Shown: positions 41,752 through 51,476 of the stretch, one piece after another
How positions within the stretch are numbered: the stretch's first letter is position 1
Layout: each line of letters begins with the position of its first letter
Source: Parapedobacter luteus
GTDB taxonomy: Bacteria > Bacteroidota > Bacteroidia > Sphingobacteriales > Sphingobacteriaceae
Reading direction: 5' to 3'
Assembly: GCF_900168055.1 (NCBI RefSeq)
Contig: NZ_FUYS01000006.1
Span: 186,001-250,000 of the forward strand
Length of the DNA: 64,000 nt
The notes under the pieces: model-generated
Told to the model about the DNA's origin: nothing
Databases searched by the model: none
The model's input: the letters and a program-made list of their open reading frames with translations, nothing else
Program-made: the position numbers and the translations under genes

Positions 41752-42708
41752 GTGACTTGTTCAATCATCATACGATCTTATAATGAAGAGCGCCACATCG
41801 GTCGCTTGATGGATGGCATCCAAAGGCAGCAACTCCCTGTTGGAGTCTCTTTAGAGGTGATTGTCGTTGATTCGGGCTCAAATGATTCTACCGTCGCCAT
41901 CGCCAAAAGCATGGGCGCAAAAATAATAAAGATAAAAAAAGAAAATTTTTCGTTTGGAAGGGCTTTGAATATTGGCTGTAACCAAGCAAAGGGAGACATT
42001 TTACTATTTGCTTCAGCGCACGTATATCCTGTTTTTAATGATTGGATTGAAAAAATGATTGCTCCATTTTCTTCTCAACGCGTTGCTTTGGTTTATGGAA
42101 GACAAATAGGAAACGAACAAACACACTTTTCGGAACAACAGGTTTTTGAAAAATGGTTTCCATCAAAAAGTAACTATGTGCAGTCTACCCCCTTTTGTAA
42201 CAATGCAAACTGTGCTATTAGGAAAAAGTTATGGGAGTCGCAACATTACAATGAATCACTGACAGGTTTGGAAGACCTAGATTGGGCACAGAAAATAATG
42301 AATAAAGGTCATCAAATCGTGTATGAAGCAGACGCTGTGATCGTCCATGTACACGAAGAAACACCCAAAAAAATAAAAAATAGGTATCAACGTGAGGCTA
42401 TCGCTTTAAAACAGATTTTACCGCGAGTGCATTTTGATTTTTTCGATTTTCTATGGCTATTTACTTCCAATACTGCTTCTGATTGGTTCCATGCGCTACA
42501 GAAGGGAATATTGTGGAAAGAATGGAAGAACATAATATCATTCAGATTTATGCAATTTTACGGCACTTACTTAGGACATAAGCAAAAGGGTATCATCACC
42601 CAAGAGCTTAAGAATAGGTTCTATTACCCCAACGGAATTAGTAAAGCTAAACACCCTGAAAACGAGAGCCGCCGATACGAAACGGGTAAAAAGATAGAAT
42701 ATGATTAA
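41752..42708 (+). CDS. Glycosyltransferase family 2
   Basis: The 318-residue enzyme (GTG start, three bases after wzt) has a GT-A fold: CSIIIRSYNEERHIGRLM, then VIVVDSGSNDSTVAIA. Where most GT2 enzymes have a DxD, it has LFASAHVYP, an SAH form known in one GT2 branch that includes rhamnosyltransferase-like enzymes. The C-terminal region is longer and basic. AT-rich usage marks it as part of the variable block. Donor and acceptor sugars cannot be read. Confidence 0.9.
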   Translation: MTCSIIIRSYNEERHIGRLMDGIQRQQLPVGVSLEVIVVDSGSNDSTVAIAKSMGAKIIKIKKENFSFGRALNIGCNQAKGDILLFASAHVYPVFNDWIEKMIAPFSSQRVALVYGRQIGNEQTHFSEQQVFEKWFPSKSNYVQSTPFCNNANCAIRKKLWESQHYNESLTGLEDLDWAQKIMNKGHQIVYEADAVIVHVHEETPKKIKNRYQREAIALKQILPRVHFDFFDFLWLFTSNTASDWFHALQKGILWKEWKNIISFRFMQFYGTYLGHKQKGIITQELKNRFYYPNGISKAKHPENESRRYETGKKIEYD

Positions 42709-42775: not shown

Positions 42776-43450
42776 ATGACAATTGCCGCTTTAGTGCCCA
42801 TGCGCCATTCAAGCGAAAGAGTGCCTGGCAAAAATTACCGCAATTTTGCCGGTAAACCTCTTTTCTTTCACATCGTAGAGACCCTCTTGGCGGTCAAAAC
42901 TATTAGTAGCGTTGTCGTGGACACCGACAGCCCGACCGTCATGGAGTTGACCCAAAAACATTTCCCATCAGTAATCATTTTGGAAAGACCAGCACATCTG
43001 CAAGATGGCTCTGTTCCCATGAATGATGTACTGCTAAACGCCATTGACCAGGTATCTGCTGATTTCTATTTACAGACGCATAGTACGAATCCTATCCTTA
43101 GCTCATTAACAATAGAAAGTTGCATCAAGAAGTTTTCGGAAATTTACCCTATGTATGACTCGCTTTTTACCGTTACCAGAAGAAATGTGCGTTTTTGGGA
43201 TACATTGGCGCGACCTATAAATCACAATCAAAATATTCTTCTAAGAACACAAGATCTACCTTCTGTTTTTGAAGAAAACTCATGCCTTTATTTATTTAGC
43301 AAAGAAATTCTGAAAAGAAAACATAACCGGATAGGCGATAGACCATTTTTGTTTGAAATCCCGGAGATAGAGGCCCAGGACATAGACGTAGAGTTAAACT
43401 TTAAAATGGCAGAGTTTTTATACAAAGAAATCAACGGACTAAACAACTAA
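42776..43450 (+). CDS. NeuA-like cytidylyltransferase
   Basis: The 224-residue protein has the nucleotide-binding signature MRHSSERVPGKNYRNFAGKP and the VVDTDSPTV strand. It also has the HSTNPILSS motif of acylneuraminate/KDO cytidylyltransferases. Such enzymes couple CTP to the anomeric hydroxyl of a 2-keto sugar acid to give a CMP-sugar. No sialic-, pseudaminic- or legionaminic-acid synthase (NeuB type) or KDO synthase gene is in the window. It heads a four-gene cassette with a D-2-hydroxyacid dehydrogenase, an SDR and a DUF115 protein. The substrate is therefore unclear. Confidence 0.88.
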   Translation: MTIAALVPMRHSSERVPGKNYRNFAGKPLFFHIVETLLAVKTISSVVVDTDSPTVMELTQKHFPSVIILERPAHLQDGSVPMNDVLLNAIDQVSADFYLQTHSTNPILSSLTIESCIKKFSEIYPMYDSLFTVTRRNVRFWDTLARPINHNQNILLRTQDLPSVFEENSCLYLFSKEILKRKHNRIGDRPFLFEIPEIEAQDIDVELNFKMAEFLYKEINGLNN

Positions 43451-43454
43451 TCTC

Positions 43455-44390
43455 ATGAAAGTACTAATCACGTGTCCACCTATGTTGCGAAGAATAGAAG
43501 AATTTAGGCATCTATTCTCAGCGAAAAACATAGAGCTTGTAACCCCAAATGTGGTACAGGTGTTGACAGAACAAGAATTAATAGAACTGGTACCAACAGT
43601 CGATGCCTGGATCATAGGTGATGATCCAGCTACTGCAAGCGTATTCAAAGCAGGTAAAGCAGGCAAGCTTAAGGCAGCTGTTAAATGGGGGGTCGGAATC
43701 GATAACGTAGATTTTGCTGCTTGTAAAGACCTGAATATTCCTATAGCAAACACTCCTCAAATGTTTGGAAGAGAGGTTGCTGACCTTGCCATTGCTTATT
43801 TGTTAGGATTAGCGAGAGAAACCTATTTTATCGACCGAGAAGTAAGAAAAGGGAATTGGGTAAAACCCTCCGGAATGTCTGTATCCGGCAAAACTGTTGC
43901 CGTAATAGGTTTAGGCGACATTGGTAGAGCGACTATCAGACGATTGCAAGGTTTCGATGTTAAGATCAATGCATATGATCCGTTTACCTTTTTCTCTCCC
44001 GAAGAAGTGGGGGCGAATGAAATTCTATCTTTCCCTGAAAAGCTGGAAGAAGCAGATTTTGTAATATTGACTTGCGCATTAACACCGAGTAGCTGTTATA
44101 TGATAAATAAGGATAGCATTGCCTTAATGAAAGATCATGTGCGACTAATCAATGTTGCAAGAGGGCCGTTAATTAACGAACAGGATTTGATAGCTGCATT
44201 AAAATCGGGGAAAGTATATTCTGCCGCATTGGATGTGTTTGAACAAGAGCCGCTTACACCTACGAATGAATTGCGCAGCTTCGAACAGTGTATTTTCGGG
44301 ACTCATAATGGCTCAAACACTGTCGAAGGGGTGAGGAGGGCGAGTTACAAGGCAATAGAACTATTGTTTGACTTCTTAAAAATCTCTTAA
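43455..44390 (+). CDS. D-2-hydroxyacid dehydrogenase (phosphoglycerate-dehydrogenase-like)
   Basis: The 311-residue enzyme has the NAD motif VIGLGDIGRATIRRL, VRLINVARGPLIN (catalytic R), ALDVFEQEPL (the E site) and FGTHNGSN for the H site. The lack of a C-terminal ACT domain separates it from typical SerA. It would interconvert a 2-keto and a 2-hydroxy acid. Here, between the cytidylyltransferase and an SDR (4 bases after the former, 1-base overlap with the latter), it probably acts on the carbohydrate precursor, not in serine synthesis. Confidence 0.9.
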   Translation: MKVLITCPPMLRRIEEFRHLFSAKNIELVTPNVVQVLTEQELIELVPTVDAWIIGDDPATASVFKAGKAGKLKAAVKWGVGIDNVDFAACKDLNIPIANTPQMFGREVADLAIAYLLGLARETYFIDREVRKGNWVKPSGMSVSGKTVAVIGLGDIGRATIRRLQGFDVKINAYDPFTFFSPEEVGANEILSFPEKLEEADFVILTCALTPSSCYMINKDSIALMKDHVRLINVARGPLINEQDLIAALKSGKVYSAALDVFEQEPLTPTNELRSFEQCIFGTHNGSNTVEGVRRASYKAIELLFDFLKIS

Positions 44391-45124
44391 TGAAAAAGAA
44401 AGTTTTGATAACCGGTGTACTTGGTGGAATTGGAAGTGGCCTGGCAAAAACTTTTAAAGAAGCAGACTATTTTGTAATTGGCCTTGACATAAAAACAACG
44501 CCTTCCGATTACTGCGATTTATTCATAAGTTTTGACTTGCATCGGTTTTGTTCAGATGCAAACTACAGAGATAAAATGTGCAATAAGTTTGATAACGAGA
44601 TTCAAACGTTAGATGTCCTGATTAATAACGCTGCTATGCAAATACTTAGTAGCGTAGAAGAAATACGATTAGATGACTGGAATCACACTTTAAATGTAAA
44701 CCTTACTGGCCCTCTGTTACTAAGTCAGTTCTTCTTGAAACAACTAGAGCAAGTACACGGGTGTATTATAAACATTGCGAGTATACATCAGCAGTTGACC
44801 AAGAAGCGGTTTGTTGCGTATGCCACTTCAAAAAGTGCCTTGGTGGGCTTGACAAAATCTATGTCGGTTGATTTACAGGGCAAAGTCAGAGTAAATGCCA
44901 TAAGCCCAGCAGCAATAGACACACCGATGTTGCACGAAGGATTTAACAACGACAGCACGATGGTACAAAAGTTAAACGATTTGCACCCTCTACGGAGAAT
45001 AGGAAAACCAGCAGAAGTATCAAAGTTAGCATTGCTATTAGCTGAGGACGGGCTTGGATTTATCAACGGCGCTAATATACAGATTGACGGAGGAATAAGT
45101 AACGTTTTAAAAGATTTAGATTAA
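44390..45124 (+). CDS. Short-chain dehydrogenase/reductase
   Basis: A 244-residue classical SDR. It has cofactor-binding GVLGGIGSGLAKTF, NNAAMQ, catalytic S in NIASIHQQ, and YATSKSA (YxxxK). The C-terminal FINGANIQIDGG is normal. It resembles PtmA-type SDRs that accompany sialic-acid-like activation enzymes in flagellin glycosylation loci. It overlaps the preceding dehydrogenase gene by one base. The substrate is not determined. Confidence 0.92.
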   Translation: MKKKVLITGVLGGIGSGLAKTFKEADYFVIGLDIKTTPSDYCDLFISFDLHRFCSDANYRDKMCNKFDNEIQTLDVLINNAAMQILSSVEEIRLDDWNHTLNVNLTGPLLLSQFFLKQLEQVHGCIINIASIHQQLTKKRFVAYATSKSALVGLTKSMSVDLQGKVRVNAISPAAIDTPMLHEGFNNDSTMVQKLNDLHPLRRIGKPAEVSKLALLLAEDGLGFINGANIQIDGGISNVLKDLD

Positions 45125-45125
45125 A

Positions 45126-46019
45126 ATGACAAAGCCACCAATCAGTGACAAAATTAAAAGAGGGTTTACAGGATTAACCTTACTTGGCAAGATGTATAGG
45201 TTTATCGCAGGCGACTGGCGCAGGTTAAACTGGTTAAAAGAACATAGGCAGAATGGCGTACCCTTCGAATGGTCCAAAAATAATGACTATTTAGATTGGT
45301 TTTATAAATACCGCCCTCACCTCGCCAAATTCAAAGATATCCATAAAGGCCAAGATTGTTTTATTATAGGAAATGGCCCTTCCCTCAATCAAACAGATTT
45401 GAATTTACTAAACGGGTATCATGTGTTTGGATTAAACAAAATCCATTTAATATTTGAGAAATATCCACGATTGAAATTATCCTATCATGTTACTGTGAAT
45501 CCTCTGGTTATTGAGCAGATTCAGAGAGAAGTGGAAGAGGGAGTCTTCGATTGCCCTACCTTTTTATCTTATCAAGGATCGAAAGGGGTTAATTTTTCCA
45601 GCAAAAATGTCTATAAACTTCTTACTTGCGGTAAATGGTCGTTTTATAAAAACGTGATGGAGCCTATCAACGAGGGCTATACAGTAACTTACGTCGCTAT
45701 GCAACTTGCTTATTACATGGGCTACAAAAATGTTTTTTTAGTAGGAGTGGATCACAATTTCTCTCAAGTTGGGAAGCCAAATGAATTGCAGGATTTTAAA
45801 GGTGACGATCACAACCATTTTCATCCCGATTACTTCAAAGGACAGCTATGGCATTTGGCTGATTTGGAAGGAAACGAGGCATCATATGCATTGGCAAAAC
45901 ACCAATTTCATGAAGATGGCAGGGAAATATTCAATGCTACTGTTGGGGGAAAACTAAATATCTTTAAAAGGATTACATTTGAAGAGGCTTTACAACGTGC
46001 GAAAAAAATGCCCGAATAA
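45126..46019 (+). CDS. DUF115 / MptE-like protein, probable sugar-acid transferase
   Basis: The 297-residue protein has the DUF115 hallmark FIIGNGPSLNQTDLNLL and the VFLVGVDHNFSQ motif. DUF115 occurs in the Maf proteins of epsilonproteobacteria, which transfer nonulosonic acids to flagellin. It is also seen in polysaccharide loci. It follows the cytidylyltransferase, dehydrogenase and SDR genes with 1-base gaps. The simplest reading is that it uses the CMP-activated product as donor. That is inference; the fold also occurs in pterin pyrophosphokinases. Confidence 0.75.
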   Translation: MTKPPISDKIKRGFTGLTLLGKMYRFIAGDWRRLNWLKEHRQNGVPFEWSKNNDYLDWFYKYRPHLAKFKDIHKGQDCFIIGNGPSLNQTDLNLLNGYHVFGLNKIHLIFEKYPRLKLSYHVTVNPLVIEQIQREVEEGVFDCPTFLSYQGSKGVNFSSKNVYKLLTCGKWSFYKNVMEPINEGYTVTYVAMQLAYYMGYKNVFLVGVDHNFSQVGKPNELQDFKGDDHNHFHPDYFKGQLWHLADLEGNEASYALAKHQFHEDGREIFNATVGGKLNIFKRITFEEALQRAKKMPE

Positions 46020-50408: not shown

Positions 50409-51476
50409 ATGACGAGACAAACGCTAAAAGAAACTATTTATACCAGTGCTCAAAGAGCGTTGGTGCAAATTAGGAAAGACGGCTCCTTGCCACCAGGCCA
50501 TAATGGACCTTATTTTGACAACGAGACTCCAGTGAGAAATACTGGACATTGGCTGATGGTCTTTTTGAAAGCGTATGAGCATTCAGGAGAGTCTAGGTTT
50601 AAAGAAGCGGCAGCGCAATGCCTCAATTTTCTTTTATCAGAAAAATCAAGACCTCACAACGCGACATTCTGGCATAGGATGAACCCTAAAAAGGATTTCA
50701 CGAATGGCTTAATTGGACAGGCTTGGACAATAGAGGCACTAGTGTATGCATACACTGTTTTTAAAGATGAACGAATCCTTGAAGTAGCAAAAGAGGTATT
50801 TAATCTGCACCCATACGATAACGAACTTAAAGGATGGAAAACGGTCAATATAGACGGCGCGGTCAGCCGTTTTGACTACACATTCAATCACCAACTTTGG
50901 TTCTGCGCAGCTGGTGCGCTGCTTTTAAAAGAAGGCTCTGATAAAGCAAGCGAGTCGGTGATGGATTTTATTAAAAACATTCCTAACGCCGTAAAACTTT
51001 ACAACAGTGGGGTAATTAGACATATTCCCCCCTTTTTTCTTAAAAAGGGGCTAATTATGAAATTACGCGCGTTTGTTTCAGAAATGAGGCGAAATATCAA
51101 AGAATATTCATATATATATCAAAAGTCTATCGGCTATCATGGTTTCAATCTGTATGCGATTGCTCTTATTGACAATACACTAAAAGATTCAAATTTATTG
51201 CGAACCAATTCTATAAAAAAAGCCATTAGAGCTACAGAAAAAAATACCTTTCGGAAGCTAACACTGTCAAGTAAGTACGCTTATCCATACAACCCTATTG
51301 GTTTCGAACTAGCTTATACTTACTATGTGTTAGGTGATATCGAAAAAACTGATTACTGGCTAACTCAGCAATATCAACAAACATTTGACACTAATTCAGG
51401 CATGTTTGATGGAGGGAAGACTTTTGATAAATTAACTGCAGCAGCTAGAATCTACGAAGCCATAAGATTAGTTTAA
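50409..51476 (+). CDS. Putative alpha/alpha-toroid enzyme of the polysaccharide locus, unrecognised family
   Basis: The 355-residue protein is helix-rich with repeated pairs of helices at roughly 40-residue spacing (for instance NTGHWLMVFLKAYEHSGESR, GLIGQAWTIEALVYAYTVFK, GFELAYTYYVLGDIEKTDYW). That pattern is typical of (alpha/alpha)6 barrels of glycoside hydrolases, lyases and epimerases. Aromatic and acidic residues cluster at FNHQLWF and YHGFNLYA. There is no signal peptide, so it would be cytoplasmic. I cannot name the family. A role as a sugar-modifying enzyme (epimerase, trimming hydrolase) for this glycan is possible. Confidence 0.6.
   Translation: MTRQTLKETIYTSAQRALVQIRKDGSLPPGHNGPYFDNETPVRNTGHWLMVFLKAYEHSGESRFKEAAAQCLNFLLSEKSRPHNATFWHRMNPKKDFTNGLIGQAWTIEALVYAYTVFKDERILEVAKEVFNLHPYDNELKGWKTVNIDGAVSRFDYTFNHQLWFCAAGALLLKEGSDKASESVMDFIKNIPNAVKLYNSGVIRHIPPFFLKKGLIMKLRAFVSEMRRNIKEYSYIYQKSIGYHGFNLYAIALIDNTLKDSNLLRTNSIKKAIRATEKNTFRKLTLSSKYAYPYNPIGFELAYTYYVLGDIEKTDYWLTQQYQQTFDTNSGMFDGGKTFDKLTAAARIYEAIRLV

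Follow-up and report, generated by a model that had tools for sequence, protein, structure and literature searches.

To our knowledge, the CMP-ulosonic acids that have been characterised, for example Kdo and sialic, legionaminic or pseudaminic acid, derive from PEP condensation. The closest described systems are the nonulosonate pathways, represented by NeuB/NeuA, PseI/PseF and LegI/LegF with Maf or sialyltransferases, and the Kdo pathway with KdsA, KdsC, KdsB and the Kdo transferases. The window, by which we mean the whole 64,000-nucleotide stretch of DNA analysed, carries a compact set of genes of related type (Table 1). An earlier note on this DNA had described four packed genes here and read them as a CMP-activation cassette lacking a nonulosonate or Kdo synthase. 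The observation itself, including the placement of the genes, was confirmed: of four successive plus-strand ORFs, the first two are 4 bases apart, the second and third overlap by 1 base and the last two are 1 base apart; all score above the Pfam cut-off. Its interpretation was partly supported. A literature search that covered part of the sources found no published description of this gene set.

Table 1. Genes of the proposed unit, in window coordinates
Feature	Position	Strand	Details
GT2-family glycosyltransferase	41752-42708	+	318 aa, GTG start; PF00535 76 bits
NeuA/KdsB-type CMP-ketoacid cytidylyltransferase	42776-43450	+	224 aa; PF02348 (CTP_transf_3) 93.8 bits, gathering cut-off 22.6
D-2-hydroxyacid dehydrogenase, PGDH-like	43455-44390	+	311 aa; 2-Hacid_dh_C 175.6 bits
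Classical SDR	44390-45124	+	244 aa; adh_short_C2 148.7 bits
DUF115/MptE-like protein	45126-46019	+	297 aa; PF01973 44.1 bits, cut-off 34.6

The four-gene order recurs in the genomes of many phyla and is thus far from a chance arrangement. The gene set was found in Bacteroidota, Cyanobacteria, Chloroflexota, Alphaproteobacteria and Methanosarcina, which rules out a unit private to the window genome. We collected loci around NeuA relatives, taking the 80 with the highest scores out of at least 589. Among these 80 the GT2 gene lies near NeuA in 39 and DUF115 in 30; all 39 loci with GT2 also have the PGDH nearby, and 28 of them the SDR as well. Co-occurrence was also scored as presence per genome, ignoring kinship. 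Across 301 genomes of the family, NeuA (at least 73% identity) and GT2 occupy an identical set of 8, and GT2 at E<=1e-40 occurs in no further genome of the 301. Among 395 genomes of the phylum, NeuA is present in 3 and GT2 in all 3, with a weaker glycosyltransferase (38% identity) in a fourth.

GT2 is therefore NeuA's most faithful partner, and its gene belongs to the unit. The members named in the earlier note are real, but the unit is larger than four genes since the upstream GT2, which had been overlooked, follows NeuA more closely than they do. The association persists where the genes are unlinked. Twenty-one loci had a NeuA without these neighbours; leaving out L095, L104 and L106 gave 18 genomes with a stand-alone NeuA. 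GT2 is encoded elsewhere in 17 of the 18, as is the PGDH type, and at the 17 PGDH loci the SDR stands beside it in 13 and DUF115 in 12. A PF04199 gene adjoins GT2 in 9 of 15 cases. The co-occurrence, linked and unlinked, rules out a four-gene unit without the glycosyltransferase. These results show that the GT2, NeuA-like, PGDH-like and SDR genes form a conserved partnership, often accompanied by DUF115 and a PF04199 hydrolase, that spans many phyla and is maintained even when the genes are scattered. In Saprospiraceae, two apparent partners of stand-alone NeuA, a protein without a Pfam match and a Ham1 protein, were taken to be unrelated.

The window lies on contig C7 of a genome that is 99.99% complete. 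NeuB (PF03102) gave no matches across the whole of this genome (the control matched in 9 of 14 genomes), which excludes a NeuB-fed nonulosonate and supports, genome-wide, the proposal of a CMP-sugar-acid cassette without such a synthase. A search covering 39 loci found NeuB absent from 15 of 38 cassette genomes and only weakly matched in 6, so that it is dispensable for the cassette. The claim that a Kdo synthase is lacking is correct within the window but does not extend to the whole genome. PF00793 has two matches, both on contig C15, in a KdsA-sized frame of 272 aa and a frame of 387 aa, and the genome's two CTP_transf_3 matches are the window's NeuA-like gene (about 93.4-93.8 bits) and a stronger KdsB-like gene, again on C15 (194.6 bits).

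In a profile search of solved structures the NeuA-like protein matched NeuA enzymes (best E 7.8e-24). It falls below the equivalog cut-offs of both PseF (TIGR03584; 89.5 versus 205.7 bits) and KdsB (TIGR00466; 26.9 versus 155.2 bits). Residues H102, R139, N149, H150, N168 and S169 are invariant in its alignment. Given this weak similarity to KdsB models and the KdsA-like gene, the enzyme could be a second Kdo activator fed by the genome's own KdsA, with the other genes serving other sugars. We regard this as very improbable, because a far stronger KdsB-like gene is already there (194.6 versus 93.4 bits), the PGDH and the glycosyltransferase would be superfluous, and Methanosarcina and Anaerolineae, neither of which we know to make Kdo, carry the unit too.

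The PGDH-like protein meets the gathering scores of PF02826 and PF00389 (175.6 and 58 bits), but not the equivalog cut-off of phosphoglycerate dehydrogenase (TIGR01327; 193.7 versus 454 bits). It possesses GDD and KWG at sites that read RS and RAG in a solved PGDH, and both motifs occur together in 54 of 58 relatives. It is a distinct, conserved type that stays with NeuA even when unlinked. The SDR, which adjoins the PGDH in many loci, contains YxxxK and an Asp after beta-2, the latter at a position that usually marks a preference for NAD(H). Its description as PtmA-like was not borne out: the best curated model is an aldose dehydrogenase, below cut-off (166.9 versus 341 bits), and we call it simply a classical SDR. 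The substrates of SDRs are poorly predictable from similarity. Several alphaproteobacterial loci have no SDR beside the PGDH, and in two of these a sulfotransferase or methyltransferase gene follows it. In one locus (L035) an SMP-30 lactonase was seen near the SDR.

The GT2 protein passes the Pfam score for its family and has a GT-A fold (model pLDDT 90.4), its best structural match being a GT2 mannosyltransferase (Z 22.7, rmsd 4.7, 255 aligned). It has no acidic DXD-type motif; the site, which aligns with LDCD of chondroitin synthase, reads S88-A-H90. S88 and H90 are invariant in the 31 rows of alignment A3, which we chose from 38 cluster members, excluding L094:2715-3689, a protein lacking SAH. 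Alignments A2 (29 of 33 cluster members) and A4 (28 rows) were also of our choosing. The DUF115 protein (model pLDDT 90.7) contains an NGPS motif that is invariant in its alignment. GT42 CstII heads its profile matches in the PDB (E 1.8e-4), and its model is closest to Maf (Z 15.3, rmsd 3.9, 208 aligned), then to the GT42 sialyltransferase CstII (Z 12.5, rmsd 3.8, 185 aligned), with HPPK/MptE as near as the latter (Z 12.4). It thus shares the fold of the Maf/GT42 CMP-sugar transferases, and its suggested role as the transferase is plausible on the strength of this model. One could suppose, then, that DUF115 alone uses the CMP sugar, whatever the type of acid, and that GT2 builds the acceptor from an ordinary nucleotide sugar, as the structures nearest to its model come from enzymes associated with UDP-, GDP- or dTDP-sugars. 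This division of labour seems unlikely to us since GT2 is the steadier partner (39 versus 30 of the best 80 loci of at least 589) and DUF115 is displaced or undetected in the seven closest Sphingobacteriaceae loci. Moreover, 37 of 38 members of this GT2 cluster have SAH or SGH at the DXD site, whereas 24 of 30 other GT2 proteins from the same loci carry an acidic motif there, the remaining 6 being unread.

We prefer, tentatively, a reading in which this portable unit produces a CMP-linked 2-ulosonic acid and also transfers it, with no synthase that condenses PEP or pyruvate, and judge it a little short of probable. We infer the oxidation steps and the identity of the sugar as follows. The NAD-type SDR would oxidise C1 of an aldose to give a lactone, which might be opened by the PF04199 hydrolase where present, spontaneously, or by another enzyme in the window genome, where PF04199 had no matches (the control matched in 8 of 14 genomes). 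The GDD/KWG 2-hydroxyacid dehydrogenase would then oxidise C2 to yield a 2-ketoaldonate, whose ring form the NeuA-like enzyme would join to CMP. Finally the DXD-less GT2, DUF115 or both would add the acid to the polysaccharide made by the locus. In favour of this reading are the conserved partnership, the exchange of supply modules described below, the dispensability of NeuB and the NAD-type Asp of the SDR; the aldose dehydrogenase match below cut-off, the loci with no SDR beside the PGDH, the lack of PF04199 in the window genome and the HpcH gene of L109 weigh against it. A bolder and rather unlikely generalisation is that bacteria and archaea share a further CMP-ulosonic acid route, in which an aldose is oxidised first at C1 and next at C2 to a non-3-deoxy 2-ketoaldonate, with no aldol condensation with PEP or pyruvate, and in which GT2 could have lost its metal-binding DXD because the CMP donor has a single phosphate. 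If true, this might be the first GT2 with a CMP donor known to us.

Seven related loci (L034, L045-L049 and L109) contain an HpcH aldolase gene: six of the 25 loci L033-L057, and one (L109) of the best 80 of at least 589. The PGDH lacks GDD/KWG in five of the seven (L034, L047, L048, L049 and L109), is intermediate in L045 and was unread in L046. As the NeuA relatives in these loci are thus mostly accompanied by another PGDH type, the two supply modules appear to be interchangeable alternatives. In L109 the aldolase adjoins a NeuA that is 60% identical to that of the window, so supply by an aldolase is possible within the clade. The keto acid might accordingly be a 3-deoxy-2-ulosonate, KDG-like, made by a dehydratase or pyruvate aldolase elsewhere in the cell, with the PGDH and SDR tailoring it or recycling cofactors and not creating the keto group. 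Two HpcH genes of the window genome exceed the cut-off, and the invariant NeuA residues are common to the NeuA proteins of the HpcH loci. The genome's HpcH matches fall on contigs C10, C26 and C11 and not on C7, which rules out an overlooked aldolase gene linked to the unit within the window. We consider a KDG-like acid possible, though on the unlikely side: the genome's HpcH proteins share only 25-33% identity with the locus type, against 42-57% between members of that type; a single locus among the best 80 has HpcH; and the distinct PGDH is retained with NeuA.

Should a widespread unit work without PEP condensation, the surface glycans of several phyla would include a further class of acidic sugars, and a function would be given to sugar-locus genes with vague labels, for instance acylneuraminate cytidylyltransferase family protein or phosphoglycerate dehydrogenase. 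The unit resembles the nonulosonate pathways in that a NeuA-type enzyme is predicted to activate a 2-keto acid sugar with CMP, and in having a DUF115 protein of Maf/GT42 fold. It differs from them in its PGDH-like enzyme and DXD-less GT2, in a NeuA below the PseF cut-off and in the absence of NeuB from the window genome. With the Kdo pathway it has in common the CMP-ulosonate logic and the cytidylyltransferase superfamily, but KdsA-like and KdsB-like genes are present separately, on another contig. The HpcH loci share a related NeuA (42-60% identical) with the same invariant residues and a PGDH-family enzyme; unlike the present unit, they have the aldolase with phosphatases or isomerases and mostly the other PGDH type. 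On the bolder reading above, they may arrive at an acid of the same class using hydroxypyruvate as aldol donor. Finally, a reference title in PMC10433991 names the E. coli K3 antigen with 4-deoxy-2-hexulosonic acid. Going by its name, this natural capsular 2-ulosonic acid has no 3-deoxy position, which indicates that such residues exist.

The four genes which the earlier note grouped as a CMP-activation cassette, coding for a NeuA/KdsB-type cytidylyltransferase (NeuA), a phosphoglycerate dehydrogenase-like D-2-hydroxyacid dehydrogenase (PGDH), a short-chain dehydrogenase (SDR) and DUF115, were found where it had placed them, on the + strand; the first two are 4 bases apart, the second and third overlap by 1 base, and the last two are separated by 1 base. 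All four names match Pfam, in which PF01973 ('MptE-like') is the former DUF115. The genes are as described, but the unit had been drawn too small, leaving out a GT2 glycosyltransferase gene directly upstream. The surrounding locus is a polysaccharide region. A 355-aa protein of the window gave only sub-cut-off matches, to the C-terminus of D-glucuronyl C5-epimerase and to LanM.

Features of the P. luteus window and of loci with NeuA relatives in other genomes
Location	Coordinates	Feature	Basis
Window	41752-42708	GT2	
Window	42776-43450	NeuA-like	Pfam
Window	43455-44390	PGDH-like	Pfam
Window	44390-45124	SDR	Pfam
Window	45126-46019	DUF115	Pfam
Window	50409-51476	355-aa protein	
Window		UDP-sugar dehydrogenase, RmlC/RmlD-, Gmd- and Fcl-like enzymes, ABC transporter parts	Names by reading the sequences, no search
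Window		Several GT2 genes	Pfam search
L035	1-2850	Possible sugar-acid gene row	
L047	1064-6889	DUF115/MptE-like paralogues	
L117	5225-7365	NeuB operon	

Relatives of NeuA (E<=1e-15) occur in 29 of 301 genomes of the family; seven genomes besides P. luteus carry versions of 73% identity that cluster together as one group, and all others are at 45% or less. A scan of named genomes gave at least 589 relatives, and the best 80 loci, which were kept, are spread over Bacteroidota, Cyanobacteria, Chloroflexota, Alphaproteobacteria and Methanosarcina, with one bin each of Planctomycetota and Zixibacteria. Since many loci are metagenome bins, single placements may be mis-binned, as may be L058, an 8.6 kb contig in a Nitrotoga bin, which carries the closest NeuA among the matches listed (79%) and groups with Bacteroidota.

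Among these best 80 of at least 589, the genes counted near NeuA are GT2 (39 loci), PGDH (59), SDR (42), DUF115 (30) and a PF04199 hydrolase (19); PGDH is near in all 39 loci with GT2. The four-gene order sought in other genomes recurs, the usual arrangement being GT2, (PF04199), NeuA, PGDH, SDR, (DUF115). In each of the seven close Sphingobacteriaceae loci, GT2, NeuA, PGDH and SDR follow one another directly; DUF115 lies 2.3 to 2.9 kb past SDR in five and was not detected in two. A stronger test of partnership than linked loci is provided by 18 genomes, mainly Saprospiraceae bins, in which NeuA lies amid unrelated genes. Seventeen of the 18 carry GT2 elsewhere (52-59% identity) and 17 a PGDH of the same type (53-64%), beside which are SDR (13/17 loci) and DUF115 (12/17); PF04199 adjoins GT2 in 9/15. 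Within the family GT2 is confined to exactly the 8 genomes having close NeuA, and across 395 phylum genomes all three with NeuA have GT2, one further genome having a weaker GT2. This co-occurrence, in presence counts uncorrected for kinship, is evidence for one shared function. The cassette is a real, conserved unit.

That it lacks a nonulosonate synthase was borne out by a search of the whole genome (99.99% complete), which gave no NeuB match. Two PF00793 proteins, one KdsA-sized and one longer, are encoded on another contig, C15, as is a much better KdsB-like match than the cassette gene, the only other CTP_transf_3 protein. Kdo therefore appears to be served by its own gene pair, the cassette enzyme being a second, different one. 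HpcH/HpaI aldolases above cut-off occur at two places, on contigs other than the window's. Among 38 genomes with the GT2-NeuA unit, NeuB was absent from 15, a weak partial match in 6 (E 4e-6 to 6e-10) and strong in 17; judging from these gene inventories, the unit does not need NeuB. In some Chloroflexota the unit adjoins a NeuB operon that includes a cytidylyltransferase of its own. At L117 NeuB lies beside a gene for a CTP_transf_3-HAD fusion, in a separate nonulosonate operon adjoining the cassette.

The NeuA profile matches solved NeuA enzymes (best E 7.8e-24), with H102, R139, N149, H150, N168 and S169 invariant. SDR is a classical member with Asp after beta-2. The best solved match of PGDH is a phosphoglycerate dehydrogenase, at a score under the PGDH cut-off, and it has GDD and KWG (both in 54/58 relatives) in place of the RS and RAG of that enzyme. 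Binding of the phosphate group of phosphoglycerate is aided by the arginines that are replaced here, which makes phosphoglycerate an improbable substrate.

Some NeuA relatives (42-45% identical) sit with HpcH aldolase, DUF386, phosphatases, SIS and MocA proteins. L109 (NeuA 60% identical) has HpcH, PGDH and HAD and no GT2 of cassette type; in the tree it falls inside the GT2 clade, at a weakly resolved position, and three changes of the HpcH label are required. PGDH lacks GDD/KWG in five of seven HpcH loci (L034, L047, L048, L049, L109) and has GDD with KYG in L045, the PGDH of L046 not being read. This pattern suggests that PGDH with GDD/KWG, together with SDR, may replace the aldolase of other loci as keto-acid source. 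Loci L046 to L049, with NeuA-like, HpcH, DUF386, SIS, MocA-type and PGDH genes and in some IMPase or DHQ-synthase, look like another CMP-acid pathway. On a Thalassovita plasmid (L035), a run of kdsA, SDR, SMP-30/gluconolactonase and MptE-like genes is a possible further sugar-acid module.

There are two candidate transferases. GT2 is modelled with a GT-A fold, and in 37/38 members the DXD place, aligned with LDCD of chondroitin synthase, reads S-A-H or S-G-H; 24 of 30 other GT2 proteins from the same loci and the window have an acidic motif, 6 not being read. The DUF115 model (pLDDT 90.7) is closest to Maf (Z 15.3), CstII (12.5) and HPPK/MptE (12.4), and a profile search placed CstII first (E 1.8e-4), with NGPSL in common. 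According to PMC11339370, a Maf enzyme takes several sugars, Neu5Ac and Kdo among them. Four DUF115/MptE-like paralogues inside 6 kb at L047 suggest several transferases of that fold in one polysaccharide locus.

The earlier reading of a CMP-linked acid is right in outline, for a larger unit that includes GT2. A search of open-access papers found no description of the gene set. Because SDR and PGDH are both oxidoreductases, the simplest chemistry would be oxidation of an aldose at C1, then C2. A lactone could be opened by the PF04199 hydrolase, a relative of solved kynurenine formamidases; it is absent from the P. luteus genome and many loci, and this patchy presence fits an opening that can also happen unaided. 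The product is likely a CMP-linked 2-ulosonic acid formed without a condensing synthase. A natural 2-hexulosonic acid, its name without 3-deoxy, is known from the E. coli K3 antigen, according to a reference title in PMC10433991.
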